Part shown: one piece after another, positions 7,430 to 39,022 of the stretch
How positions within the stretch are numbered: position 1 is the first letter of the stretch
How the letters are laid out: the number at the start of each line of letters is the position of its first letter
Origin: Mycobacterium sp. UM_CSW
Lineage (GTDB): Bacteria > Actinomycetota > Actinomycetes > Mycobacteriales > Mycobacteriaceae
Direction of reading: 5' to 3'
Assembly (NCBI RefSeq): GCF_000455205.1
Contig: NZ_AUWQ01000041.1
Location: forward strand, 62,001 to 126,000
DNA: 64,000 nt
Translations under genes and position numbers: made by a program
Notes under the pieces: generated by a model
What the model was told of the DNA's origin: nothing
The model's input: the letters and a program-made list of their open reading frames with translations, nothing else
Databases searched by the model: none

Positions 7430-8308
7430 CTATGTGCGCGACAGGAACGCCAGCACAGTGCTTTCGAACGCCTGCCTGGCCTCGATCATGGCCCAGTGCC
7501 CGGAGTTCGGGAAGATGTGCAGCTCTGCGTTGGGGATGGTGCGCATCGGCAGGAGCGCCATGTCGGGCGGGCTCACCCGGTCGTCGCGGCCCCACGTCAG
7601 CAGGGTGGGCGCCGACAGTTTGTGCATGACCGCCCACGGCATCGGCCGGTCGGAGGCGGCCATGCCGGCGTTCATCGCGGCGAACGCCGCCTTGCCGTAC
7701 ATCCGGCGGGCGGCGTCCAGGGCAACGGGATCCGTCGCGAGCGCCCAGCGCTCCTCGATCAGCTCGTCGGTGACCAGCGACTGGTCGTAGACCATCGACT
7801 TCAGCCAGTCGACCAGCCGTTGGCGCGTCGGGTCCTCGACGAACTCCTGCAGCAGCCGGATGCCCTCACTGGGGCTCGGGCTGAAGATGTTGGTGCCGAT
7901 GCCGCCGATGGTGACCAACCGGTCGACGCGGTCGGGATTTCCGATGGCGAAGTTGATGCCGACGCCGCCGCCCATCGAGTTGCCGACGATGTGCGTCTTG
8001 CCGACACCCAGCGCGTCCAGGAACGGCCCGACGGTGCCGAACGCCATGACCATCGGGTGGCCGCCGAAGTCGTCGCTGACGCCGAAACCGGGGAATTCCA
8101 GGACCAGGCAGCGGTACTGCTCGGCGAATGTCGGCAATATCCCGCGAAAGTTGCGCCAGCCGGTGACCCCGGGACCCGAGCCGTGCAGGAAGAGCAGGGT
8201 CGGCGCCGAATCCGGCCCACAGTCGTAGTAGCGCAACGCGCCCTTCGGAGTTCCGATTTCGCGCAGGTCGTGTTCGACGAGTTCAGAAGTGTTGGCCACG
8301 GATGTCAC
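7430..8308 (-). CDS. Alpha/beta hydrolase, meta-cleavage-product hydrolase type
   Basis: The 292-residue protein has an oxyanion segment HGSGPGVTGW, nucleophile elbow GNSMGGG, acid in TWGRDDRVSP and a final GHWAMIE histidine, the complete Ser-Asp-His set. HGSGPG followed by GNSMGG is typical of C-C hydrolases of the BphD/HsaD/MhpC type, which split vinylogous diketone acids formed by ring-cleavage dioxygenases. No extradiol dioxygenase is nearby, so another C-C or ester hydrolase role is possible. It converges with the amidohydrolase and diverges from the cupin gene. Confidence 0.88.
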   Translation of the reverse strand: MTSVANTSELVEHDLREIGTPKGALRYYDCGPDSAPTLLFLHGSGPGVTGWRNFRGILPTFAEQYRCLVLEFPGFGVSDDFGGHPMVMAFGTVGPFLDALGVGKTHIVGNSMGGGVGINFAIGNPDRVDRLVTIGGIGTNIFSPSPSEGIRLLQEFVEDPTRQRLVDWLKSMVYDQSLVTDELIEERWALATDPVALDAARRMYGKAAFAAMNAGMAASDRPMPWAVMHKLSAPTLLTWGRDDRVSPPDMALLPMRTIPNAELHIFPNSGHWAMIEARQAFESTVLAFLSRT

Positions 8309-17756: not shown

Positions 17757-20441
17757 GTGAGCCCACCAGCCCCGCCAGTGCTGACCGTGCGGTACGAGGG
17801 ATCGGAGCGCACCTTCGCAGCAGGCACCGACGTCGTAATCGGGCGTGATCTTCGCGCGGACGTCCGCGTCGCACACCCGCTGATCTCCCGGACGCACCTC
17901 ATCGTGCGATTCGACCAGGGGCGATGGATCGCCATCGACAACGGCAGCCTCAACGGGCTCTACGTCCACAACCGTCGCGTGCCGGTCGTCGACATCCAGG
18001 ACGGCCTGCGGGTCAACATCGGCAACCCGGACGGACCGGCGCTGACCTTCGAAGTTGGCCGCCACCAGGGTTCGGCCGGGCGGCCGCCCCTCACCACGTC
18101 GATACCGATTTACACCGCGGGCACGCCGAGCGCCCCCGCGTCCCAGAGCCAGCCGCAGCAGGTCGGGACGCCCTGGCCCGGCCAGCCCCAGCAGACGCCG
18201 TCGGCTCCGGTCCGCCAGCCGACGCATCCGCCGAGCGCGTCCAGGCCGATCCATCCGCCCAGTGCTCCCCAGCCGATGCATCCGCCCAGCGGGCCGCAGC
18301 CGATCCATCCGCCCAGCGGGCCGCAGCCGTGGCAGCCGACCGGTGCACACCCGACGGGAGCGCCCAGCGAACCGCAGCAGGCGCCGAAGATCTACCGGGC
18401 ACAACCCATGCAGGTGCCGCCCGCTGAGTCCGAGACGGGCCGCGTCGGCGATGCCGCGAACATCGCGACGTCGATGATGAAGATCCTGCGGCCGGGTCGA
18501 ACCGGGTTGGTGTCGTTGCCCGGCGCGGTCAAGATCGGCCGCGCCAACGACAACGACATCGTCATCCCCGAGGTGCTGGCATCGCGCCACCACGCGACCC
18601 TGATCCCCACGCCGCAGGGAACCGAAATCCACGACAACCGCAGCATCAACGGGACTTTCGTCAACGGCGCCCGGGTCGATTCGGCCGTGCTGCACGAGGG
18701 CGACGTCGTCACGATCGGCAACATCGACCTCGTTTTCGCCGGCGGCACGCTGGCCCGGCGCGACGAGTCCGCGACCGCGACGCGCACCGGCGGCCTCGAC
18801 GTTCGCGGGGTGACGTGGACGATCGAGAACAACAAGGTGCTGCTCGACGACATCTCGCTGGGTGCGCAGCCCGGAACGCTGACCGCCGTCATCGGTCCGT
18901 CGGGGGCGGGAAAGTCGACGTTCGCGCGGTTGGTGGCCGGCTACACGCACCCCACCAAGGGCACGGTGTCCTTCGAGGGCCACAACGTTCACGCGGAATA
19001 CGCCTCGCTGCGCAGCAGGATCGGGATGGTCCCTCAGGACGACGTGGTGCACGGGCAGCTGACGGTGCAGCAGGCGTTGATGTATGCAGCCGAGTTGCGG
19101 CTGCCCCCGGACACCACCAAGGACGACCGCGCGCAGGTGGTCGCGCGGGTGCTCGAGGAACTCGAGATGACCCAGCACCTGCACACCCGGGTGGACAAGC
19201 TGTCCGGCGGCCAGCGCAAGCGCGCGTCGGTGGCGCTGGAGCTGCTGACGGGGCCGTCGCTGCTGATCCTGGACGAGCCGACGTCCGGCCTGGACCCGGC
19301 CCTGGATCGCCAGGTGATGACGATGCTGCGGCAGTTGGCCGACGCCGGTCGTGTGGTGCTCGTGGTCACGCACTCGCTGACGTACCTGGATGTCTGCGAC
19401 CAGGTCTTGCTGCTGGCGCCCGGCGGAAAGACGGCGTTCTGCGGGCCGCCAAGCCAGATCGGTCCGGCGATGGGCACGACGAACTGGGCCGACATCTTCA
19501 GCACTGTCGCGGGCGACCCCGACGGCGCCAAGGCCCGCTACCTGGCGCGGACGGGACCGCCCCCGCCGCCACCGCCGGCGGAGAAACCCGCCGAGATCGG
19601 CGACCCGTCGCACACCAGCCTGTTCCGGCAGTTCTCTACGATCGCGCGGCGGCAGGTGCGGCTGATCGTGTCCGACCGCGGCTATTTCGTGTTCCTGGCG
19701 CTGCTGCCGTTCATCATGGGCTCGCTGTCGATGTCGGTGCCCGGTGATGTGGGCTTCGGCAGGCCGAACCCCATGGGCGCGGCGCCCACCGAACCGGCGC
19801 AAATTCTGGTGCTGCTCAACGTCGGCGCGGTCTTCATGGGAACGGCGCTGACGATTCGGGATCTCATCGGGGAGCGGGCGATCTTCCTGCGCGAGCAGGC
19901 GGTCGGCTTGTCGACGTCCGCCTACCTACTCGCGAAGGTGTTCGTCTATACCGTGTTCGCCGTCATTCAGTCCGCGATCGTGACCGTCATCGCGGTCCTC
20001 GGGAAGGGCGGCCCGACGCAGGGTGCGGTGGCGCTGGGCATTCCCAACCTGGAGCTCTTCGTCGACGTCGCGATGACGACCGTCGCCTCGGCGATGCTCG
20101 GGCTGGTGTTGTCATCGATTGCCAGGTCGAACGAGCAGATCATGCCGCTGCTGGTCGTGGCGGTGATGTCGCAGCTGGTGTTCTCCGGCGGCATGATTCC
20201 GGTCACCGATCGCCTCGGGCTGGACCAAATGTCTTGGGCCACACCGGCCAGATGGGGCTTCGCGGCGTCGGCCTCCACCGTCGACCTGCTCAGCCTGCAG
20301 GACAAGGTTCCGCAGACGCCGCACGACTCGCACTGGCGTCACACGGCCGGCGCGTGGTGGTTCGACATGGGCATGCTGATATTGCTCTGCGTCGTGTACC
20401 TGGGGTTCGTGCGCTGGAAGATTCGCCTCAAGGGCGGCTGA
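17757..20441 (+). CDS. Double-FHA ABC transporter (Rv1747-type ATPase-permease)
   Basis: 894 residues from GTG 17757 (TTG 17748 possible). FHA domain 1 spans about 10-100 (VIGRDLRADV, SRTHL, NGSLNGLYV), followed by a Pro-rich linker with repeated HPPSxPQP units, FHA domain 2 about 240-320 (KIGRANDNDIV, SRHHA, NRSINGTFV), an ABC ATPase with Walker A GPSGAGKS, signature LSGGQRKR and Walker B LLILDEPTSGLDP, and a C-terminal membrane domain of about six helices. M. tuberculosis Rv1747 has this order and is controlled by kinase phosphorylation recognised by its FHA domains (established). No kinase is adjacent here. Confidence 0.93.
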   Translation: MSPPAPPVLTVRYEGSERTFAAGTDVVIGRDLRADVRVAHPLISRTHLIVRFDQGRWIAIDNGSLNGLYVHNRRVPVVDIQDGLRVNIGNPDGPALTFEVGRHQGSAGRPPLTTSIPIYTAGTPSAPASQSQPQQVGTPWPGQPQQTPSAPVRQPTHPPSASRPIHPPSAPQPMHPPSGPQPIHPPSGPQPWQPTGAHPTGAPSEPQQAPKIYRAQPMQVPPAESETGRVGDAANIATSMMKILRPGRTGLVSLPGAVKIGRANDNDIVIPEVLASRHHATLIPTPQGTEIHDNRSINGTFVNGARVDSAVLHEGDVVTIGNIDLVFAGGTLARRDESATATRTGGLDVRGVTWTIENNKVLLDDISLGAQPGTLTAVIGPSGAGKSTFARLVAGYTHPTKGTVSFEGHNVHAEYASLRSRIGMVPQDDVVHGQLTVQQALMYAAELRLPPDTTKDDRAQVVARVLEELEMTQHLHTRVDKLSGGQRKRASVALELLTGPSLLILDEPTSGLDPALDRQVMTMLRQLADAGRVVLVVTHSLTYLDVCDQVLLLAPGGKTAFCGPPSQIGPAMGTTNWADIFSTVAGDPDGAKARYLARTGPPPPPPPAEKPAEIGDPSHTSLFRQFSTIARRQVRLIVSDRGYFVFLALLPFIMGSLSMSVPGDVGFGRPNPMGAAPTEPAQILVLLNVGAVFMGTALTIRDLIGERAIFLREQAVGLSTSAYLLAKVFVYTVFAVIQSAIVTVIAVLGKGGPTQGAVALGIPNLELFVDVAMTTVASAMLGLVLSSIARSNEQIMPLLVVAVMSQLVFSGGMIPVTDRLGLDQMSWATPARWGFAASASTVDLLSLQDKVPQTPHDSHWRHTAGAWWFDMGMLILLCVVYLGFVRWKIRLKGG

Positions 20442-29838: not shown

Positions 29839-31433
29839 CCGATACGGACGTCATCGTCGTCGGCGCGGGGTTCGCCGGACTGTATGCCGTGCACCGGGCG
29901 GCCTCGGCGGGGCTGTCGGTGATCGGCATCGAGGCGGCTCCCGACGTGGGCGGCACCTGGTATTGGAATCGCTATCCTGGCGCACGGTGCGACGTCGAAA
30001 GTGTGGACTACTCATACTCGTTCGACGAGGAACTGCAGCGGAGCTGGACCTGGACAGAACGCTTCGCCGCGCAGCCGGAGATCCTGGCCTATCTCCGCCA
30101 CGTCGCCGACCGGTTCGACCTGCGCCGCCACTACCGGTTCGGCGTCCACGTGGTCGGCGCCGACTTCGACCAGGACGACGGGCGCTGGCACGTGCGCACC
30201 TCCGGCGGCCAGGAGCACGCCGCGCGTTATCTGTTGTGCGCGACGGGCTGCCTTTCGGCGGTGAACCGCCCCGACATCCCCGGCGCCGGCGACTTCGCCG
30301 GCGAGGTGTACTTCACGGCCGAGTGGCCAGACGAGGATCCGGACCTGCGCGGCAAATGGGTGGGGCTGATCGGCACGGGTTCGTCTGGCATTCAAGCGGT
30401 TCCGGTCATCGCCGCCGAGGCGGAGCGGCTGGTGGTGTTCCAGCGCTCGGCGAACTACAGCATCCCGATGCCCAACCGCCCATGGTCTCCCGAGGAACAG
30501 CAACAGATCCGGGAGGACTACCCGGAGCGCCGCCGGCTGTCGGCCTACGCCTCGGCGGGCACGCCGCACGGCACCTACCACAAGAAGGCGATCGACACCG
30601 AACCGCAGGAGCGCCTCGATGCCCTGTGGCGGCGCTGGCGCGAGGGCGGCGTGCTGTTCGCCAAGACCTTCCCCGATCAGAACAGCGACCCGGCGGCGAA
30701 CGACATCGCAAGGGAATTCGCCGAGGAACGCATCCGGGAAATCGTGCACGATCCCGTCGTCGCGGCCGATCTCATACCGGTCGACCACCCGATCGGGACC
30801 AAGCGGATCTGTACCGACGCAGGTTATTACGCGACGTTCAACCGCGACAACGTCCGGCTGGTGAACCTGCGCCGCGAGCCCATCGACTCCATCACCGGTG
30901 AGGGCGTGCGAACCAGCGAAGCCACCTACCCGTGCGACGTGCTGGTCTTCGCGACCGGCTTCGACGCGCTGACCGGTGCGCTGACCCGGATCGACCCGTG
31001 CGGGCCCGGCGGAGTGCGGCTGCGCGACGTGTGGGCCGACGGCCCGCTGACGTTCCTCGGCCTGATGGTGCCGGGCCTGCCCAACCTGTTCACCATCAGC
31101 GGGCCCGGCAGCCCGTCGGTGCTGGCCAACATGGTGCTGCACGCCGAGGTGCAGATCGACTGGGTGATCGAACTGATGCTCACGGCGCGCCGACTCGGCC
31201 TCAGCGAGGTGGAACCGCGCCGCGACGCCGCCGTGGCCTGGACCCGCCACGTGGCACAGGCCGCCGACCAGACGCTTTTCCCCAAGGCCGCGTCGTCGTG
31301 GTACCTGGGCGCCAACATCGAAGGCAAGAAGCGCGTATTCATGCCCTACGCCGGCGGTTTCGGTAACTACCGGCGCCACTGCGACGCGGTCGCCGCCCAC
31401 AACTACGCCGGGCTGGTGCTGACCACCCGATGA
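29835..31433 (+). CDS. BVMO-like flavin monooxygenase with altered fingerprint
   Basis: 532 residues. FAD motif GAGFAG at about 10-15 and NADPH motif GTGSSG at about 180-185 are intact. The BVMO fingerprint FxGxxxHxxxWP reads FAGEVYFTAEWP at 154-165: Phe160 stands where the histidine should be. The rest of the protein closely resembles the BVMO at 228. It may be an active but altered Baeyer-Villiger enzyme or a different class B monooxygenase. It is coupled to the esterase before and the CoA synthetase after it. Confidence 0.88.
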   Translation: MTDTDVIVVGAGFAGLYAVHRAASAGLSVIGIEAAPDVGGTWYWNRYPGARCDVESVDYSYSFDEELQRSWTWTERFAAQPEILAYLRHVADRFDLRRHYRFGVHVVGADFDQDDGRWHVRTSGGQEHAARYLLCATGCLSAVNRPDIPGAGDFAGEVYFTAEWPDEDPDLRGKWVGLIGTGSSGIQAVPVIAAEAERLVVFQRSANYSIPMPNRPWSPEEQQQIREDYPERRRLSAYASAGTPHGTYHKKAIDTEPQERLDALWRRWREGGVLFAKTFPDQNSDPAANDIAREFAEERIREIVHDPVVAADLIPVDHPIGTKRICTDAGYYATFNRDNVRLVNLRREPIDSITGEGVRTSEATYPCDVLVFATGFDALTGALTRIDPCGPGGVRLRDVWADGPLTFLGLMVPGLPNLFTISGPGSPSVLANMVLHAEVQIDWVIELMLTARRLGLSEVEPRRDAAVAWTRHVAQAADQTLFPKAASSWYLGANIEGKKRVFMPYAGGFGNYRRHCDAVAAHNYAGLVLTTR

Positions 31434-33007
31434 CCGAGACTGTGCAGCAGCTGCTACGCGAACGCCGCAACGACGACACTGTCGCGGTCGTCCACGCCGA
31501 CCGGACGTGGACCTGGCGGCAACATCTGGCCGAGGCCGAGGCCGAGGCGGCCGCGCTGATCGGCCTCGCCGACCCCGCCCGTCCGCTGCACGTCGGCGCG
31601 CTGCTCAGCAACTCCCCGGCGATGCTGCGCGCCATGGCCGCCGCCGCGCTGGGCGGCTACGTGTTGTGCGGGATCAACACCACCCGGCGTGGGCCAGGGC
31701 TGCTCGCCGACATCCGCCGATCCGACTGCCAGATCCTGCTCGTCGACGGCGAGCACCTGCCCCTGTTGGAAGGCCTGGCGCTCAACGGGATTCAGGTCAT
31801 CGACGTGGGCTCGACGCGTTACGCCGACGCGGTCGCCGCGGCCCCGGCCCTCGTTCCGCATCGCGAGGTCACCGCCGCGGACACCCTGATGATGATCTTC
31901 ACCTCCGGCACCAGCGGAGACCCCAAGGCCGTCCGATTCGCGCACGGCATGGCGATCATGTGCGGGACCAGCCTGATCTGGCAGTACGACGTCACCGCCG
32001 AGGACGTCTGCTACCTGGCCATGCCGCTGTTTCACTCCAACGGGATCGCCGCCGGATGGGCGGTCGCCATCGGCAGCGGCGCCACGATGGTGCCGGCCAA
32101 GTTCTCGCCGTCACGCTTCATCGACGACGTGCGCCGCTACCAGGTGACCTACCTGAACTATGTCGGCAAGCCGCTGGCGCTGATCCTTGCCACGCCCGAA
32201 CGTCCCGACGACGCCGAGACCTCGCTGCGGATCGCGTTCGGCAACGAGGCGACCGATCGCGACATCGACGAGTTCGCACGGCGTTTCGGATGCCGCGTCA
32301 TCGACAGCTTCGGCTCCAGCGAGTTCGCGGTGATCGTCGTGCGCGAGGACGGCGCCCCACCCGGCTCGATCGGCAAGCCCTACCCGGGAGTCAGCATCTA
32401 CAACCCGCGAACCCTGACCGAGTGCGCGGTGGCGGAGTTCGACGACCACGGCGCGCTGACCAACTTCGACGACGCCGTCGGCGAACTCGTCAACACCCAG
32501 GGCGCCGGACCGTTCACCGGCTACTACAACGATCCCGCCGCGACGGCCGAGCGCATGCGGCACGGCATGTACTGGTCGGGCGATCTGGCCTACCGCGACG
32601 CCGACGGCTGGATCTATCTGGCCGGGCGCACCGCGGACTGGATGCGGGTGGACGGCGAAAACCTGGCGGCCGCGCCGATCGAGCGGATCCTGGAACGGCT
32701 GCCGCAGGTCGGTCAGGTCGCGGTTTATGCGGTGCCCGACGACCGGGTCGGCGACCAGGTGATGGCCGCACTCGTGCTACGCGACGAAACCCCCTTGAGC
32801 CCCGATGATTTCGAGAAGTTCCTCGCCTCGCAGCCCGACCTGTCGCCCAAGGCGTGGCCGCGCTACGTGCGGATCAACGACGACCTGCCCGCGACCGCCA
32901 CCAACAAGATCCTCAAACGGGAGTTGATCGCCGCCGGCATCACCGCGCAGGGTGGGATGCTGTGGACCCGCGCGACGCGCGGCACCACCTACAGCGTGAC
33001 GCCGTGA
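31430..33007 (+). CDS. AMP-dependent acyl-CoA synthetase (FadD17-like)
   Basis: 525 residues of ANL superfamily. The P-loop region reads MIFTSGTSGDPKAV (about 155-168), the later motifs are FGSSEFAVIV, YWSGDLAYRDADGWIYLAGR and the C-terminal lysine segment TATNKILKREL. It activates a carboxylic acid as acyl-CoA for the dehydrogenases of this operon. M. tuberculosis places FadD17 beside FadE26/FadE27 in a similar setting. Its stop codon is the first base triplet of the direct repeat that begins the adjacent islet. Confidence 0.9.
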   Translation: MTETVQQLLRERRNDDTVAVVHADRTWTWRQHLAEAEAEAAALIGLADPARPLHVGALLSNSPAMLRAMAAAALGGYVLCGINTTRRGPGLLADIRRSDCQILLVDGEHLPLLEGLALNGIQVIDVGSTRYADAVAAAPALVPHREVTAADTLMMIFTSGTSGDPKAVRFAHGMAIMCGTSLIWQYDVTAEDVCYLAMPLFHSNGIAAGWAVAIGSGATMVPAKFSPSRFIDDVRRYQVTYLNYVGKPLALILATPERPDDAETSLRIAFGNEATDRDIDEFARRFGCRVIDSFGSSEFAVIVVREDGAPPGSIGKPYPGVSIYNPRTLTECAVAEFDDHGALTNFDDAVGELVNTQGAGPFTGYYNDPAATAERMRHGMYWSGDLAYRDADGWIYLAGRTADWMRVDGENLAAAPIERILERLPQVGQVAVYAVPDDRVGDQVMAALVLRDETPLSPDDFEKFLASQPDLSPKAWPRYVRINDDLPATATNKILKRELIAAGITAQGGMLWTRATRGTTYSVTP

Positions 33008-33028
33008 CTCACCCGGCCTCGGCGGGCG
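33005..33028. repeat. Left copy of 24-bp direct repeat flanking the islet
   Basis: The copy begins TGACTCACCCGGCCTCGGCG and matches 37727-37750 at 23 of 24 positions (C here versus A there at position 8). It starts with the acyl-CoA synthetase stop TGA and contains, in reverse, the last codons PAEAG and stop of the DUF6545 gene. Identity stops abruptly on both sides. It resembles an attachment or target site duplicated by insertion. Confidence 0.8.
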
Positions 33029-34208
33029 CAATCTGGCTGAACTGTTCGGTGGCCGCTAGGGCGGGCTTCCACCATTTCGCCAGGGCCAACAGTTCGGTGA
33101 CCTCCTCGTCGAGGGTTGTCGCCCGGGAGCGCAGGATCGTTGCCACGTCGGGGGATCCGGGCGTGGCGTCTGCGGTTTTGGCTCTGGCGGCGTGAGCCAG
33201 TTGTAAGGTTTGCGACGCCGCGTCGTGTTCGGCGGTTGGCACGGCGTTTGCCTGGAGGAACCCGGCCAGCTCGTGCGGCGCTATGTCGCGGAAATAGGGA
33301 CGCAGGTGCAGGATGGCGTCGCGGATTTCGATAATTGTTTGGTGTAGCTGCAGGGTGGTCTTTTGAAACCGATAATTGTCGTCGTCGAGGTTGAAACTGC
33401 TTTCCGGGACCACCGTTGTCAAGCTTGCCCTTAAGGCGGCCAAGTTTTTCCAGGAGCGGCTGGTGGGATCCAGTCCGAGGTACCGCAGCACTCGCGCTAC
33501 GAGCGGAACAGCTCCGAAGCCATACACGATGACTGCTATGCAAAAGGCCTCAAAGCCGTGCAACCAGAGCCGGAACCTCAGGGTGTCGGTCCAGCCGAGC
33601 TGATCGGTCGCGGCAGAGACCAGCGCTTCCAGGCAGGCTGCTGCGGTCAGCACACCGACCAGTAGCCCGCCGACGGCGAGGAAGAGGTCACGTTTCTGGG
33701 TGCTCTTTCGCACCTCGGCTGCGAACATCCAAATAGCCCGAACCGCCAGCAGGAGAATCATGGCCGTATAGAAGCTGCAGGCCAAGACTCCGTCCCAGCC
33801 GCCGGCGACTTCAAGGGTTTGACCGGCAACGCGGGCACGGGTCGCCGCGACCAGGTATGCCACGCATAATATGACCGCGGCCAGGCGGTAATAGCGGTGA
33901 CCCCGGCGCGTTTCGACCGGTGAGAGCCGAGTCCACAACATCGTGAAGCCAATGAATTCGGTGGCGGCGAAGATCATTGCCGCGGAAGATAATTGCTGGG
34001 CGGTGGTGACGGTCAACAGAGCCCGTTTGGACAGCATGACTTCTACTTCGTGCTCACGCAGGAGCTCGATCAGCAGGATCCAGGCCATCAGATTGCTGTA
34101 GTACCTCTCGTAGAGGTTGGTCCTGCACCAGCGGAAGCGCGCGGCGAGAAGCACCGCCATGGCGATGATCACGGGCCAGGCGATGAAGCCTGGGACGGTG
34201 GAGGTCAT
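33009..34208 (-). CDS. DUF6545/MAB_1171c-type multi-pass membrane protein
   Basis: 399 residues with about seven hydrophobic helices in the first 250 (e.g. IAWPVIIAMAVLLAARF, FSAAMIF-type AAMIFAATEFIGFTML, VLACSFYTAMILLLAV), then a cytosolic helical tail. It looks like the actinobacterial family annotated as a MAB_1171c-type putative transporter, which is typically found beside HTH and ImmA/IrrE genes (recalled family knowledge). It overlaps the peptidase gene by 4 bp. Its last residues PAEAG are encoded in the flanking repeat and are shared with the DMT transporter. Confidence 0.75.
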   Translation of the reverse strand: MTSTVPGFIAWPVIIAMAVLLAARFRWCRTNLYERYYSNLMAWILLIELLREHEVEVMLSKRALLTVTTAQQLSSAAMIFAATEFIGFTMLWTRLSPVETRRGHRYYRLAAVILCVAYLVAATRARVAGQTLEVAGGWDGVLACSFYTAMILLLAVRAIWMFAAEVRKSTQKRDLFLAVGGLLVGVLTAAACLEALVSAATDQLGWTDTLRFRLWLHGFEAFCIAVIVYGFGAVPLVARVLRYLGLDPTSRSWKNLAALRASLTTVVPESSFNLDDDNYRFQKTTLQLHQTIIEIRDAILHLRPYFRDIAPHELAGFLQANAVPTAEHDAASQTLQLAHAARAKTADATPGSPDVATILRSRATTLDEEVTELLALAKWWKPALAATEQFSQIAPAEAG

Positions 34209-34708
34209 CGCCGATGGAAGAAGGCGCTACGCATCATCATCGACGAGCGTTCGTTGGCTTCGGCGGCCGCGATCATCAGCAGGGAAGCGAACATTTCGGC
34301 ATCGCGCTCTTGCTCGCTGCCGCCATTGCTGCGCCCGAGCACCGCGTGCACGGTTTGAGGATCGATATCGGGCAAGACCTGGCGGCACAGGTCGTGTTCC
34401 CGCCCCTTGTCTGCGCCGAAAGCAGGACTTCGGTGGTGACCTAGGAGCATGTGCCCGATCTCGTGGCCGACGATCTGGTCGATGTGGTAGTCGGTGGTCC
34501 CGATCTCGTGCAGGATCAGGTCGTCGTTGTCGCGAGCCAGCCACAGCCCGCATGGACTGTCGGCCAGAGCGGCGGTGTCGGTCGGAATCAATCTGATTGG
34601 GCGGCCGCGCAATTCGGCCAGATTGCGGATGAACACGTCCCTGTCCCAGGGGACCGGGATCGGTTGGCGACGTGCCAGCGCCAAGATGTCACCATTCGAA
34701 AGTGTCAT
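34205..34708 (-). CDS. ImmA/IrrE family metallo-endopeptidase
   Basis: 167 residues. The zinc motif HEIGH is at about residues 82-86 (VGHEIGHMLLGH), with a third ligand candidate in QERDAEMFASLL near the C-terminus, the arrangement of the ImmA/IrrE family. Such peptidases cleave a repressor or HTH protein to relieve repression under stress or in mobile elements (established for ImmA of ICEBs1 and IrrE/DdrO). Here it directly follows the EspR-like gene and overlaps the membrane protein gene. Confidence 0.88.
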   Translation of the reverse strand: MTLSNGDILALARRQPIPVPWDRDVFIRNLAELRGRPIRLIPTDTAALADSPCGLWLARDNDDLILHEIGTTDYHIDQIVGHEIGHMLLGHHRSPAFGADKGREHDLCRQVLPDIDPQTVHAVLGRSNGGSEQERDAEMFASLLMIAAAEANERSSMMMRSAFFHRR

Positions 34709-35173
34709 TTACGCCTCCCCCTCACCGGCGCCCGGGTGCGCGATCGGCGGAAGCCGCTCAAGTTCGCGAACGCGGTCAAGAATCAGGGCCACACTGTTGA
34801 GTGCCTGCGGAGTAAGGCCGCTCGCACGCATGGCCAAGTCCCGTACGCCGTTATCACGCAACGCTTGCAGAAGATTGAGTTGGGCATCGATCTGCGCGTC
34901 CGGATCGCGATCAATGAGATAGCTGGCCGGTACCCCGAAAAACTCGGCGATGGCGCGCAAATGTTGGACCGTTGGGTTGTCCTTGACTCCGCTTCTCAGC
35001 TGCCAGAGGTATGCCGGGCTGATCGAGACACCGGTTTGGGTGGTGATCGCGGCCGCGGCGGCAGCATTCGACAGCGGCGGCGTGTCTGGCCGACGCATGA
35101 TCTCGAAGAGCTTGTTCAGGCGGGCCGCCAGGTCGCCCTTCTCCACGCCTTGCGCATCCCCGTGGCCGCCCAT
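34709..35173 (-). CDS. EspR-like helix-turn-helix regulator
   Basis: 154 residues. LAARLNKLFEIM, then ISPAYLWQLRSGVKDNPTVQHLRAIAEFFGVPASYLID, closely follow the N-terminal HTH layout of EspR (Rv3849), a mycobacterial nucleoid-type regulator, and residues LQALRDNGVRDLAMRASGL match its dimerisation part. It is first in the three-gene minus-strand unit and divergent from mmpL. The adjacent peptidase might cleave it, by analogy with ImmA systems (inference). An internal GTG start is possible. Confidence 0.85.
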   Translation of the reverse strand: MGGHGDAQGVEKGDLAARLNKLFEIMRRPDTPPLSNAAAAAAITTQTGVSISPAYLWQLRSGVKDNPTVQHLRAIAEFFGVPASYLIDRDPDAQIDAQLNLLQALRDNGVRDLAMRASGLTPQALNSVALILDRVRELERLPPIAHPGAGEGEA

Positions 35174-35174
35174 G

Positions 35175-35213
35175 TGTACTCCCGTTTATCATGACCGCTA
35201 TCGGCATGTACTC
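35175..35213. promoter_or_regulatory. Paired TGTACTC motifs in divergent promoter
   Basis: TGTACTC occurs at 35175-35181 and again at 35207-35213, 32 bp apart, about three helical turns, on the same strand. The pair lies in the 104-bp region between the EspR-like start and the mmpL start and could be a binding site for the regulator. No further copy was noted. Confidence 0.4.
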
Positions 35214-35277
35214 ACGTTACTCAACTGGGGATGGTACGTCGGGCGATACCGGGTGACAAACTTTGGAAGGACACTAC

Positions 35278-37539
35278 ATGCTGCACCGGATCGCGCTGTT
35301 GGCTATCGCCGCGCCGCGGCGGGTCATCGCCGTTGCCTTGCTGATCCTTATCGGGGCAACGGTTTTTGGCGCCCCGGTCGCTCCGAGCCTGTCGGTAGGC
35401 GGCTTCCGGGATCCGAGCTCGGAGTCGGCCCACGCCAGCGGGCTGTTAACCGACAAGTTCGGTCAAAGCGATCAACAGCTGGTGTTTGTGGTGACTGCGC
35501 CCGGAGGTGCCGCCAGCGATCAAGCTCGTCGGGTCGGCACCGATATCGGCGAACAGCTGTTGCGGTCCCCGCACGTGCTGAACGTGTCCTCGGCGTGGAC
35601 CGCTGCACCGGAAATCGCGGCCGGGCTGATTAGCAAGGACGGCAAGTCCGGCTTGATCGTGGCCAACCTCAAAGGCGGGGAAAACAACGCGCCGAAATAC
35701 GCCAAGGCGCTGTCCGATCAAATCGGGGGCGACCGCGACGGAGTCGACGTGCGCGCTGGGGGAATGGCGATGGTCTACGCGCAGGTCAACGATCAAACCC
35801 AGCGCGACCTGGTGTTGATGGAATTCATCGCAATCCCGTTGAGCTTCCTTGCGCTGGTGTGGGTGTTCGGTGGCCTGCTCGCGGCGGCGCTGCCCGTTGC
35901 CGTGGGGCTGATCGCCATCGTCGGTTCCATGTCGATACTGCGGCTACTGACTTTCACCACGGACGTCTCGATTCTGGCGCTCAACCTCAGCACCGCGCTG
36001 GGCCTGGCGCTGGCCATCGACTACACGCTATTGATCATCAGCCGCTACCGCGACGAGCTGGCCGAAGGAGCCACTCCCAACGACGCACTGATCCGGACGA
36101 TGGCCACGGCCGGGCGAACCGTGCTCTTCTCCGCGACCACGGTAGCGCTGTCGATGGCCGTGATGCTGTTGTTCCCCATGTACTTCTTGAGATCGTTCGC
36201 CTATGCCGGAGTTGCAACCGTCGCATTTGCGGGTCTGGCGGCGATCATGGTGACCCCGGCAGCGATTGCCGCACTGGGGCCCCGGCTGGACTCCCTGGAT
36301 GTTCGCCGGCTGGCACGTCGGGTGCTGCATCGACCTGATCCGCTGCCGAGACGACCGGAACAGCTGTTCTGGTACCGGTCAACCAAGCTGGTGATGCGCC
36401 GAGCGATGCCCATCGGGCTGGCCGCGCTCGCCGTGCTGCTGCTGCTGGGATTCCCATTCCTGCACGTGAAGTGGGGCTATTCCGACGACCGCCTGTTGCC
36501 GCGATCTGCGTCCGCCCATCAGGTGGGCGACCAGCTCCGCAACGGTTTCGCCAACGATTCCGCGCCGGCGATACAGGTCGTCATCCCCAACGCGCGCGAC
36601 CTGGTTCCTTCCGACTTTGACGGCTACGCTGCCGAACTGTCTCGGGTGCCCGACGTGTCCGCGGTAGCCGCTCCGGCCGGCACCTTCATCGATGGGCACG
36701 ATGTTGGGCCACCGGAGGCCGCGACTGGGATCGTCGGCGGCAGTGCATTTTTGACCGTCGCCAGTTCCGCGCCGTTGAATTCGTCAGCCTCCGACACCCA
36801 ACTCGACCGGTTACACAAGCTGCCGGGCCCCGGTGGCCGGTCAGTCCAGCTCGCTGGCCTCGCGCAAGCCGACCGCGACAGCGTCGAAGCCATCACCTCG
36901 CGCCTGCCGCTGGCGGTCGGATTTATCGCTGTCGTCACCTTCGCCCTGCTGTTCTTGCTTACCGGTAGCGTGGTGCTGCCACTCAAGGCGTTGATCCTCA
37001 ACGTCTTATCGCTGACGGCGACGTTCGGTGCCTTGGTGTGGATATTCCAAGAGGGCCACCTTGACGCCCTGGGGACCACGTCTACCGGAACGCTGATCGC
37101 CAACACGGCGGTACTGATGTTCTGCATCGCGTTCGGCCTATCCATGGACTATGAGGTGTTCCTGGTGTCACGGATTCGCGAGTACTGGCTGGCATCGGCC
37201 CGTAGCAGCGACGCCAACGACGTGTGCGTGGCGTTGGGAGTGGCCCGTACCGGGCGCGTGATCACCGCCGCCGCGCTGGTCATGTCAATCTCGTTTGCCG
37301 CGCTGGCCGCCTCGCAGGTCTCGTTCATGAGGATGTTCGGGCTCGGACTGACCCTGGCCATACTCATGGACGCGACCGTGATACGCACCGTACTGCTACC
37401 GGTCTTCATGCATGTGCTGGGCCGGGCCAACTGGTGGAGCCCCAAACCGCTAGCCTGGCTGCACAACCGAATCGGCATCAGCGAATCCGCCAGCCACGCC
37501 AGGCACGTGGCGCCCGGTTACTTGGCCGAGGATGAATAG
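35278..37539 (+). CDS. MmpL/RND family membrane transporter
   Basis: 753 residues from ATG 35278, 8 bases after GGAAGGA. Two repeats of an RND-type membrane domain are seen, each with a conserved Asp-Tyr pair: LALAIDYTLLIISRYRDEL in the first and FGLSMDYEVFLVSRIREY in the second. Large periplasmic loops follow TM1 and TM7. Such proteins export lipids or small molecules using the proton gradient. It is shorter than classical MmpL3-type proteins, closer to the MmpL13/YdfJ type. It is divergent from the EspR-like gene inside the islet. Confidence 0.93.
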   Translation: MLHRIALLAIAAPRRVIAVALLILIGATVFGAPVAPSLSVGGFRDPSSESAHASGLLTDKFGQSDQQLVFVVTAPGGAASDQARRVGTDIGEQLLRSPHVLNVSSAWTAAPEIAAGLISKDGKSGLIVANLKGGENNAPKYAKALSDQIGGDRDGVDVRAGGMAMVYAQVNDQTQRDLVLMEFIAIPLSFLALVWVFGGLLAAALPVAVGLIAIVGSMSILRLLTFTTDVSILALNLSTALGLALAIDYTLLIISRYRDELAEGATPNDALIRTMATAGRTVLFSATTVALSMAVMLLFPMYFLRSFAYAGVATVAFAGLAAIMVTPAAIAALGPRLDSLDVRRLARRVLHRPDPLPRRPEQLFWYRSTKLVMRRAMPIGLAALAVLLLLGFPFLHVKWGYSDDRLLPRSASAHQVGDQLRNGFANDSAPAIQVVIPNARDLVPSDFDGYAAELSRVPDVSAVAAPAGTFIDGHDVGPPEAATGIVGGSAFLTVASSAPLNSSASDTQLDRLHKLPGPGGRSVQLAGLAQADRDSVEAITSRLPLAVGFIAVVTFALLFLLTGSVVLPLKALILNVLSLTATFGALVWIFQEGHLDALGTTSTGTLIANTAVLMFCIAFGLSMDYEVFLVSRIREYWLASARSSDANDVCVALGVARTGRVITAAALVMSISFAALAASQVSFMRMFGLGLTLAILMDATVIRTVLLPVFMHVLGRANWWSPKPLAWLHNRIGISESASHARHVAPGYLAEDE

Positions 37540-37726
37540 CAGGAGCCGGTCTGTAACGGGCCGTGTGACGCAATCGGGTTGGCCCCGAGCCGTTTTCGCA
37601 TGCCTGGGTTCCGGCCGGCCGGACCGCGCACGAAAACCGACCCGCGTCGTCGTCGCCCTGGACTCAGTCGTCACTCAGGGTCGCTATATCGGCTGCAGCA
37701 GAATAGGTTCCGCGGGCAGAGCGAAA

Positions 37727-37750
37727 TGACTCAACCGGCCTCGGCGGGCG
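37727..37750. repeat. Right copy of 24-bp direct repeat flanking the islet
   Basis: Matches 33005-33028 at 23 of 24 positions. This copy contains, in reverse, the stop codon and last codons (PAEAG) of the DMT transporter gene. If the DNA between the copies were removed, the acyl-CoA synthetase stop and the transporter stop would lie one base apart in a convergent arrangement. Confidence 0.8.
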
Positions 37751-38582
37751 TGGGCGCCTCGCCGAAGCGCGCCAACACCAGCGTTCCGCACACGGCCACA
37801 ACGAATCCCGCGATCACCAGCCAGCCGAGGCCGTCGCGGGCGGAGTCACCCAGCCAGACGACGCCCACGATCGCGGGTGCGATCGTCTCGCCGACGACCA
37901 TGGCCGCCACCGTCGTCGTCACCGAACCGCGGTGCAGGGCGGAGGTGAGCAGGAGAAATCCCGCGACCCCGCCGCCCGCGCCCGCGTAGAGCGCCGGCTG
38001 GGTGTAGAAGGCAGGCTTGGTCGGGTCGACCACGTCCATCAGGCGCACCGCGATTTCGACCACGCCGAATCCGCTTCCCGCGCAAAGGCCCAGGGCGAGC
38101 CCCCGGGCGCGGTCATGCAACCGGCCGGCGGCGGCACCGATGAGGAATATCGCGGCGACCACACCGATCAGCGCCCAGCCGAGTCCGGCCGGGGCGCGGC
38201 GAAAGTGCCCGGGACCCGCAGCGCACGCGAGCACGACGAGGCTCACGCAGACCACCGCGACGGCCGTCCATTCCGTCGCGGACAGCCGTGCCGACAGCAC
38301 CCACGCCGAGACGATGCCGGTGACCGCGATCGATGCTGCCAGCGCCGCGGCCACGACGTAGATCGGCACCAACCGCAGCGCCATCACCTGAAGCAGAAAC
38401 CCGAGGACGTCAAGGCCGATGCCGGCGATATAGCGCCACTGCCGGACGGCCCGCATCAGCAGCACCGCGTCGACGCCGGACTTGCTGGCGGGTTCGACCG
38501 ATCGTGTGGCGACCGCCTGCAATACCGTGGCGGTGCCGTAGCACACCGAGCAGCCCAGCGCGAGCAGGAACCCGATGAGCAC
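37731..38582 (-). CDS. DMT-superfamily (EamA-like) membrane transporter
   Basis: 283 residues from GTG 38582. About nine to ten hydrophobic helices follow one another (VLIGFLLALGCSVCYGTATV, LVPIYVVAAALAASIAV, WALIGVVAAIFLIGAAAG, GWLVIAGFVVAVCGTLVL), typical of drug/metabolite transporters. An in-frame ATG at 38648 exists, but the hairpin at 38606-38661 separates it from the gene body and fits a terminator of the preceding gene, so the later start is favoured. Its last seven codons are the target of the flanking repeat. Confidence 0.82.
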   Translation of the reverse strand: MLIGFLLALGCSVCYGTATVLQAVATRSVEPASKSGVDAVLLMRAVRQWRYIAGIGLDVLGFLLQVMALRLVPIYVVAAALAASIAVTGIVSAWVLSARLSATEWTAVAVVCVSLVVLACAAGPGHFRRAPAGLGWALIGVVAAIFLIGAAAGRLHDRARGLALGLCAGSGFGVVEIAVRLMDVVDPTKPAFYTQPALYAGAGGGVAGFLLLTSALHRGSVTTTVAAMVVGETIAPAIVGVVWLGDSARDGLGWLVIAGFVVAVCGTLVLARFGEAPTPAEAG

Positions 38583-38605
38583 AGAATGACAATACGGGGG
38601 CCGGC

Positions 38606-38661
38606 GAGTGTGGGCCCTAGGTAGGGAAACTGCCGCGGATTCGTCCATAGGCCCCACGCTC
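38606..38661. terminator. Hairpin between SHOCT-protein and DMT genes
   Basis: GAGTGTGGGCC (38606-38616) pairs with GGCCCCACGCTC (38650-38661) with one mismatch and one bulge, around a 33-nt loop. It lies just downstream of the minus-strand SHOCT gene and upstream of the DMT start, so it is a likely terminator. The arm sequence matches other GTGTG-type hairpins here. Confidence 0.5.
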
Positions 38662-38674
38662 AAGCCCAGGCAAC

Positions 38675-39022
38675 TCACATCTGCGAGAGGATGCGGGCGA
38701 GCTTGGCGGTGTACTCCGACTCGGAGATCGCGCCGGCGGCGCGCAGCGCCTCCAGTTCCCTGAAGCGCTCGGGAACCGGCACCGGCGGGTCCGGATACGA
38801 AGGCGCCGTCGGATGCGCGGGCTGCCTCGTGTCCCGGATGCCCCATCCCGAGCCGAGGTTGACGAGCCGGAGCGCGAAGAGCACCCCGCCCGCGGTGATC
38901 GGCAGCCCGAGGTAGAGCATCCACCCGAGCGGCACGCCCGCGCGGCTCAGAGCGAAGTAGCGCGAGACCAGCAGCAGGGCGATCAGCGCGCCGGACAACA
39001 GGACAGCGGCCTTGGTCTTCAT
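38675..39022 (-). CDS. Small membrane protein with C-terminal SHOCT domain
   Basis: 115 residues from ATG 39022. Two hydrophobic segments (VLLSGALIALLLVSRYFAL and GWMLYLGLPITAGGVLFAL) are followed by a Pro-rich linker and a SHOCT-type helix pair, RFRELEALRAAGAISESEYTAKLARIL. SHOCT segments are short oligomerisation modules at protein ends. Function is unknown. It lies 26 bp downstream of the larger membrane protein gene and probably shares its transcript. Confidence 0.8.
   Translation of the reverse strand: MKTKAAVLLSGALIALLLVSRYFALSRAGVPLGWMLYLGLPITAGGVLFALRLVNLGSGWGIRDTRQPAHPTAPSYPDPPVPVPERFRELEALRAAGAISESEYTAKLARILSQM

Follow-up and report, generated by a model that had tools for sequence, protein, structure and literature searches.

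How did four genes come to lie between two convergent genes, and what could they be doing there? We addressed this question in a 64,000-nucleotide stretch of Mycobacterium sp. UM_CSW (contig NZ_AUWQ01000041.1, positions 62,001 to 126,000; hereafter the window), in which an islet at approximately 33029–37726 separates the convergent genes for a fadD1-type acyl-CoA synthetase and a DMT-family transporter. The islet encodes a DUF6545 membrane protein, a small metallopeptidase, an XRE-type regulator and, divergently, an MmpL-family transporter. An earlier inspection of the DNA without database searches (the sequence-only reading) had noted that 24 bp recur as a direct repeat at both ends of the islet, and had proposed an insertion at the 3′ end of the DMT gene. 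The best explanation of the whole is that the islet is probably horizontally acquired DNA that entered by a single insertion in the common ancestor of the window's genome, Mycobacterium sp. E796 (taken to be genome G051) and Mycobacterium sp. 1245805.9. Comparison of these loci shows that at least 117 bp of the local sequence, reaching from the fadD stop codon ∼110 bp into the DMT gene, became duplicated in this insertion, and that the left, non-functional copy has decayed separately in the three genomes. Since the duplication reaches so far into the DMT gene, this gene kept its 3′ end.

Empty sites and base composition

The left flank of the insertion site is the fadD1-type gene (31430–33007, plus strand; NF009927 FadD1, 973.5 bits), the right flank the DMT gene (37731–38597, minus strand; NF038012, 55.2 bits). 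A DNA search of 118 genomes of the genus gave the first hint of an empty site: in genome G017 the match to fadD runs into that to DMT, and in G058 the two are separated by 28 bases. In a second search, the natural G017 fadD–DMT junction served as the query and 226 of 238 genomes were matched. Among the matches listed, 32 of the 238 genomes (including G017) have a single alignment spanning the junction, and the site is therefore empty there, which bears out the earlier proposal of an insertion between formerly convergent genes. The spacing at 30 empty loci (in 29 genomes besides the query's own) differs from that of G017 by −21 to +70 bp, and in G017 itself, read by eye, the TAA of fadD shares bases with the DMT stop codon. 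Some rows deviate from this simple pattern: two separate matches lie 108 bases apart in G062 and 77 bases apart in G048, in G195 the matches to fadD next to DMT are fragmented and in part run in inverted orientation, and most other listed genomes match just one of the two genes. G188 carries a different insert of 2.8 kb at the same junction (locus L179, 1837–4653), with a fatty-acid desaturase and a Fer2/FAD reductase; no direct repeat was found around it. Among the loci examined, the islet occupies the fadD1–DMT site in three genomes, namely those of the window, E796 and 1245805.9; for partial matches to a three-gene part of the islet elsewhere, the neighbours were checked for a subset.

The comparison of base composition suggested by the sequence-only reading set the islet apart from its flanks. 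The insert (33029–37726) has a GC content of 0.633, a lower value than in any of the 250 further overlapping windows of its length across the 64 kb (0.647–0.711). GC at third codon positions is 0.735–0.798 in the islet genes, the genes on either side having 0.865 and 0.907. None of the four islet genes was named as an integrase or transposase by Pfam or NCBIfam, in line with the sequence-only reading.

A long duplication worn down to 24 bp

The two 24-bp copies, TGACTCACCCGGCCTCGGCGGGCG at 33005–33028 and TGACTCAACCGGCCTCGGCGGGCG at 37727–37750, are identical at 23 of 24 positions, and identity ends at both edges, as the earlier inspection had described. Only two direct pairs with at least 23 of 24 matches within 10 kb occur in the window, the second being a near-tandem repeat at 18270–18330, and eight locally shuffled windows contained none. 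A chance repeat was rejected on the basis of these shuffles together with the empty sites in relatives. The stop codons of fadD (33005–33007), DUF6545 (33009–33011, minus strand) and DMT (37731–37733, minus strand) lie inside the repeats at the positions given earlier, and the right copy retains the final codons of the DMT gene, in agreement with an insertion at its 3′ end.

The 24 bp are not the complete repeat as had been assumed; judged against the E796 locus they are the worn remnant of a longer duplication. In E796 the direct repeat has the same outer edge and measures 117 bp, with a left copy at L039 2806–2922 and a right copy at 7609–7725 that are identical at 110 of 117 positions and span the DMT 3′ end. 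The corresponding right copy in the window (37727–37843) stands in place within the DMT gene and aligns over 117 bp with both E796 copies, and the left repeat (33005–33028) would be what remains of a duplicate of at least this length. Over 104 columns (alignment columns 14–117), the E796 left copy differs from the DMT ends of E796 and of the window at 5 positions each, and from that of 1245805.9 at 10. The DMT ends of G017, G058, G134 and G201 differ at 20, 23, 25 and 20 positions, and more distant loci at 30 (G165), 25 (G061), 30 (G038) and 65 (G230, visibly out of register). Because the fewest mismatches are to the E796 and window DMT ends, the left copy is a local duplication and not an imported piece.

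The three filled sites represent different stages of decay. Of the left copy, 117 bp are left in E796 and 24 bp in the window; a stretch of 146 bp bounded by two CGGGCG words, a microhomology, is present in E796 and missing from the window. 1245805.9 lacks ∼101 bp of the left copy, of which 14 bp plus a few bp remain. The non-coding right tail of the insert (37540–37726) has been kept by the window and partly deleted in both relatives, with 65 bp missing in E796 and ∼125 bp in 1245805.9. Among 198 genomes a long match to this tail (93%) was found only in E796 besides the window's own genome, all other matches being at most 51 bp long with E-values of 1.2e-4 or worse. In M. smegmatis, direct repeats reportedly induce perfect deletion of the intervening sequence ∼1,000-fold over background (PMC3519483); the loss of one copy would therefore be expected to stabilise the islet.

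The 146-bp deletion also accounts for a feature that the sequence-only reading had taken as original, a DUF6545 protein ending naturally in PAEAG. The C-termini are PEVQASSPT in E796, PEVKANSPT in 1245805.9 and PEAQLHSQG in G058, and by this comparison the PAEAG of the window stems from the DMT fragment, whose last codons came to be read in frame once the deletion had occurred. Two unrelated proteins thus have the same last codons because the deletion joined DUF6545 to the duplicated DMT fragment. By eye, the E796 fadD gene carries an in-frame TAA a few codons ahead of the usual end (L039 2791–2793).

Two observations concern the right flank. The listed DMT open reading frame extends to 39029, and homology to the relatives' DMT gene ends at ∼38596. 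Directly upstream of DMT, E796, 1245805.9, G017 and G058 have ∼0.8–2.8 kb where the window (38597–38705) has only ∼80–110 bp, and for this reason the long frame is probably not real.

The cargo at other sites and on mobile replicons

A search for the same islet at another site, as proposed earlier, was successful in G058. This genome has an empty fadD–DMT site and carries the same four genes elsewhere with 78% DNA identity over 33043–37563; there the copy (L041 8190–12942) is flanked by an M28 peptidase gene and by the gene of a zinc-metallopeptidase lipoprotein. To judge from how far apart the two flanking matches lie, the corresponding site holds other DNA in several genomes, for example a DUF222 gene in G017.

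The three-gene part of the islet has DNA matches in 50 of 396 genomes of the genus including its own, and near full length in far fewer. Of 379 scored genomes (a further 17 were unscored), just three showed a close mmpL (≥80%), namely G000, G051 and G058; the next best is 76%, and three loci of this class that were checked (G117, G071, G083) are without the module. A test of 14 other module loci revealed no direct repeat comparable to the 117 bp of E796; it excluded the module ends and is insensitive, missing even the window's own 24 bp. The test returned large similar genes on both sides in G199 (direct, 72%) and inverted ones in G120, a 23-bp inverted match in G271 and a 32-bp direct match in G357. 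Ten genomes (L074–L083) have the three-gene module at one common location (for example L075 7649–11072), which in G358 adjoins a class I tRNA-synthetase-like gene and LuxR-type regulators.

Related clusters are found on the M. avium plasmid p1-JPH1 and in mycobacteriophage Adler, both with the gene order XRE, small peptidase, DUF6545, P450. The small peptidases of these two replicons are annotated as ‘hypothetical protein’ and were named by position and DNA match, that of Adler being without a Pfam hit. The clusters share the same three genes in the same order with the islet but continue into a cytochrome P450 gene, whereas the islet has no P450 gene and a divergent mmpL; P450 also adjoins DUF6545 in G057. 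No viral contigs carrying the XRE protein were found. The family travels on mobile replicons, and horizontal entry is therefore plausible; the route taken here does not follow from this.

Route of entry

As the most likely route we tentatively favor recombinase-independent capture: a linear fragment would have been taken up at a staggered break, with fill-in of the single strands and end joining duplicating the target. We rank it first, with a probability somewhat short of even. A Ku gene is present in four of four genomes tested. No terminal inverted repeats were found: the best score in E796 is 9, which was reached by 41 of 300 shuffles, and the best in 1245805.9 is 7 (score alone, no shuffles). 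One parallel is the illegitimate integration by which slow-growing mycobacteria take up linear DNA, in that no recombinase is needed and Ku is present.

Several points weigh against this account of entry. Laboratory insertions of a linear fragment in M. avium, as described in the available portion of that study, were accompanied by deletions of 2–669 bp in 13 of 13 mutants, in contrast to the duplication at the islet, and no word beginning with ‘duplicat’ occurs in that portion (PMC3511198). Given these deletions, a 117-bp duplication is not a usual product of end joining. The G058 copy has no comparable flanking repeat, its best pair being 20 bp at E 0.054. One site of the E796 left copy is G, as in E796 and the window, versus C in 1245805.9, which misfits a simple tree and may reflect conversion or homoplasy. 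A duplication of at least 117 bp without a recombinase or terminal inverted repeats in fact fits most known routes poorly.

The length of the repeat would be expected if the islet had been a passenger of transposition with a very long target duplication, of the kind seen for IS1549 and IS1634, its transposase having been lost or acting in trans. IS1549, which is mycobacterial (M. smegmatis), and IS1634 reportedly leave long and variable direct repeats of 8–514 bp, a range that includes 117 bp (PMC2266710), and E796 has three sub-cut-off matches to the IS1634 family at two places on contig C212. Unlike these insertion sequences, however, the islet contains no gene named as a transposase, lacks terminal inverted repeats and carries four genes of other kinds; an IS1634 transposase above the cut-off was found in none of four genomes tested, G000 giving one weak partial match and G017 and G058 none. 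We therefore regard transposition as unlikely. The suggestion of the sequence-only reading that the islet may be moved in trans found no support either: there are no terminal inverted repeats, and the right edge matched none of 50,697 phage records, its plasmid matches being confined to E 0.3 to 1.

Many integrative islands target gene 3′ ends and preserve the gene end, and the position of the islet at the DMT 3′ end, with the gene end intact and direct repeats at both edges, would also suit site-specific integration by a tyrosine or serine recombinase that was later lost, the repeats being attL and attR. This is decidedly improbable, as no recombinase is named among the islet genes, the left copy looks local and not imported, and the G058 copy has no DMT-like sequence at its edges. 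The islet's right edge had no match in 50,697 phage records (37545–37860, none at E ≤ 1) and plasmid matches at E 0.3 to 1 only; the idea that the DMT end has a copy in an att site or on a mobile replicon was rejected on these results. Exact direct repeats without any recombinase would likewise result from a single homologous crossover of a circle on which the islet already lay beside a DMT 3′ fragment, and p1-JPH1 and Adler do carry the XRE–protease–DUF6545–P450 genes. Yet no convincing DMT 3′ fragment was present in the plasmid or phage records searched, and a prior capture event would be required, which shifts the question one step back; we hold this to be highly improbable. That no insertion took place, with a chance repeat and four ancestral genes lost elsewhere, has nothing in its favour and is virtually ruled out: the empty junctions in 32 genomes among the matches listed, the overlapping stops of G017, the low GC content and the 117-bp duplication of E796 refute it.

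A putative operator and the function of the cargo

The XRE-type helix-turn-helix (HTH) regulator is encoded at 34709–35173 (minus strand; PF01381 exactly at the cut-off). In 14 of 18 loci, two copies of a 15-bp box (TGYACTCNYGTTWCA) lie upstream of xre at a spacing of 32 bp; the consensus derives from the very loci that were scored. In the window the two boxes, TGTACTCCCGTTTAT at 35175–35189 and TGTACTCACGTTACT at 35207–35221 (plus strand), lie in the divergent xre–mmpL promoter region (35174–35277) and are the only matches with up to two mismatches in the 64 kb. When spacings from 20 to 60 were allowed, pairs with at most two mismatches per box appeared at 32 only; at up to three mismatches, none occurred in five shuffled sets. 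As an added case, plasmid p1-JPH1 has a similar pair with 1 and 2 mismatches, again 32 bp apart. These regularities point to a putative operator of DUF6545 cassettes. Its generality is reduced by the four loci without a pair (G057, G199, G120 and G357, the last three with a single box-like site) and by phage Adler, whose xre region has none; furthermore, ten of the 14 loci with a pair share their flanks and thus represent one orthologous locus. In the Adler xre region (L196 3700–4050) a repeated GGAAACTGAYATTRC motif was seen by eye.

The adjoining gene (34205–34708, minus strand) encodes an ImmA/IrrE-like metallopeptidase with a HEIGH motif, in which H82, E83, H86 and E138 are invariant in ten of ten sequences; the invariant glutamate E138 is presumably a metal ligand. 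The peptidase has no Pfam or NCBIfam hit, and no solved relatives were found by sequence at E ≤ 1. PADLOC matched it weakly to capP (E 3.4e-4) and the XRE protein to capH (3.2e-7), besides a weak HTH_VI match; a defence-system label was rejected, as these weak matches were all that PADLOC gave.

The DUF6545 protein (33009–34208, minus strand; PF20182, 3e-20), now ending in PAEAG, resembles MAB_1171c and scores 94.4 bits against NF042915, slightly below the cut-off of 100. The protein is predicted to have a number of membrane helices followed by a C-terminal part that is also helical, the structural model having a mean predicted local distance difference test score of 75.4. The model had no PDB match at E ≤ 0.001, and low-scoring matches to seven-helix receptors were not taken as homology. 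The knock-out of MAB_1171c, the namesake of the family, in M. abscessus reportedly formed about half the biofilm of the control (PMC8707978). In a full-text search of an open-access library, the name DUF6545 occurred in no paper and MAB_1171c in one; no paper there combined metalloprotease, XRE, mmpL, mycobacterium and genomic island. The divergent gene (35278–37539, plus strand) encodes an MmpL-family transporter with an MMPL domain (PF03176, 1.6e-75; MmpL3 structures, E 7.1e-91) and is a predicted exporter; its ATG start at 35278 was picked by eye, the listed frame beginning at TTG 35263.

An XRE HTH gene beside an HExxH peptidase gene is also found in ImmR–ImmA of ICEBs1 and TnSmu1, CapH–CapP and DdrO–IrrE, pairs that are reported to act through cleavage of the repressor (PMC10233336, PMC10904395). 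By analogy, the XRE–protease pair of the islet has parts that would fit repressor cleavage. It differs from these systems by the addition of the DUF6545 membrane protein and the divergent MmpL exporter, and its similarity to CapH and CapP is weak. In the mechanism we propose, XRE would repress its own operon plus the divergent mmpL from the two boxes, and the HExxH protease would remove XRE upon a signal, perhaps gated by the DUF6545 membrane protein, which may sense this signal. That the cargo works in this way as a self-controlled export cassette, with repression by XRE and its removal by the protease, is in our view the most likely function, at about even chances.

Implications

The locus offers an insertion made in nature, whose site is empty in many genomes and whose scar has decayed to different stages in three related ones; the entry of recombinase-free mycobacterial islets thereby becomes studyable. 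It illustrates how a long duplication can wear down to a short terminal repeat, and how a later deletion can leave two unrelated proteins with identical last codons. As a conserved feature, the pair of boxes is a directly testable candidate operator for DUF6545 cassettes. More broadly, and as a proposal that we ourselves consider improbable, mycobacteria may possess a recombinase-free route that inserts kilobase-sized cassettes while duplicating at least 100 bp of the target, and that here delivered a self-regulated exporter in which DUF6545 would gate an ImmA-type protease against XRE at mmpL. If this were true, genes would enter beside others without destroying them, and the later loss of one repeat copy would lock the cassette in.

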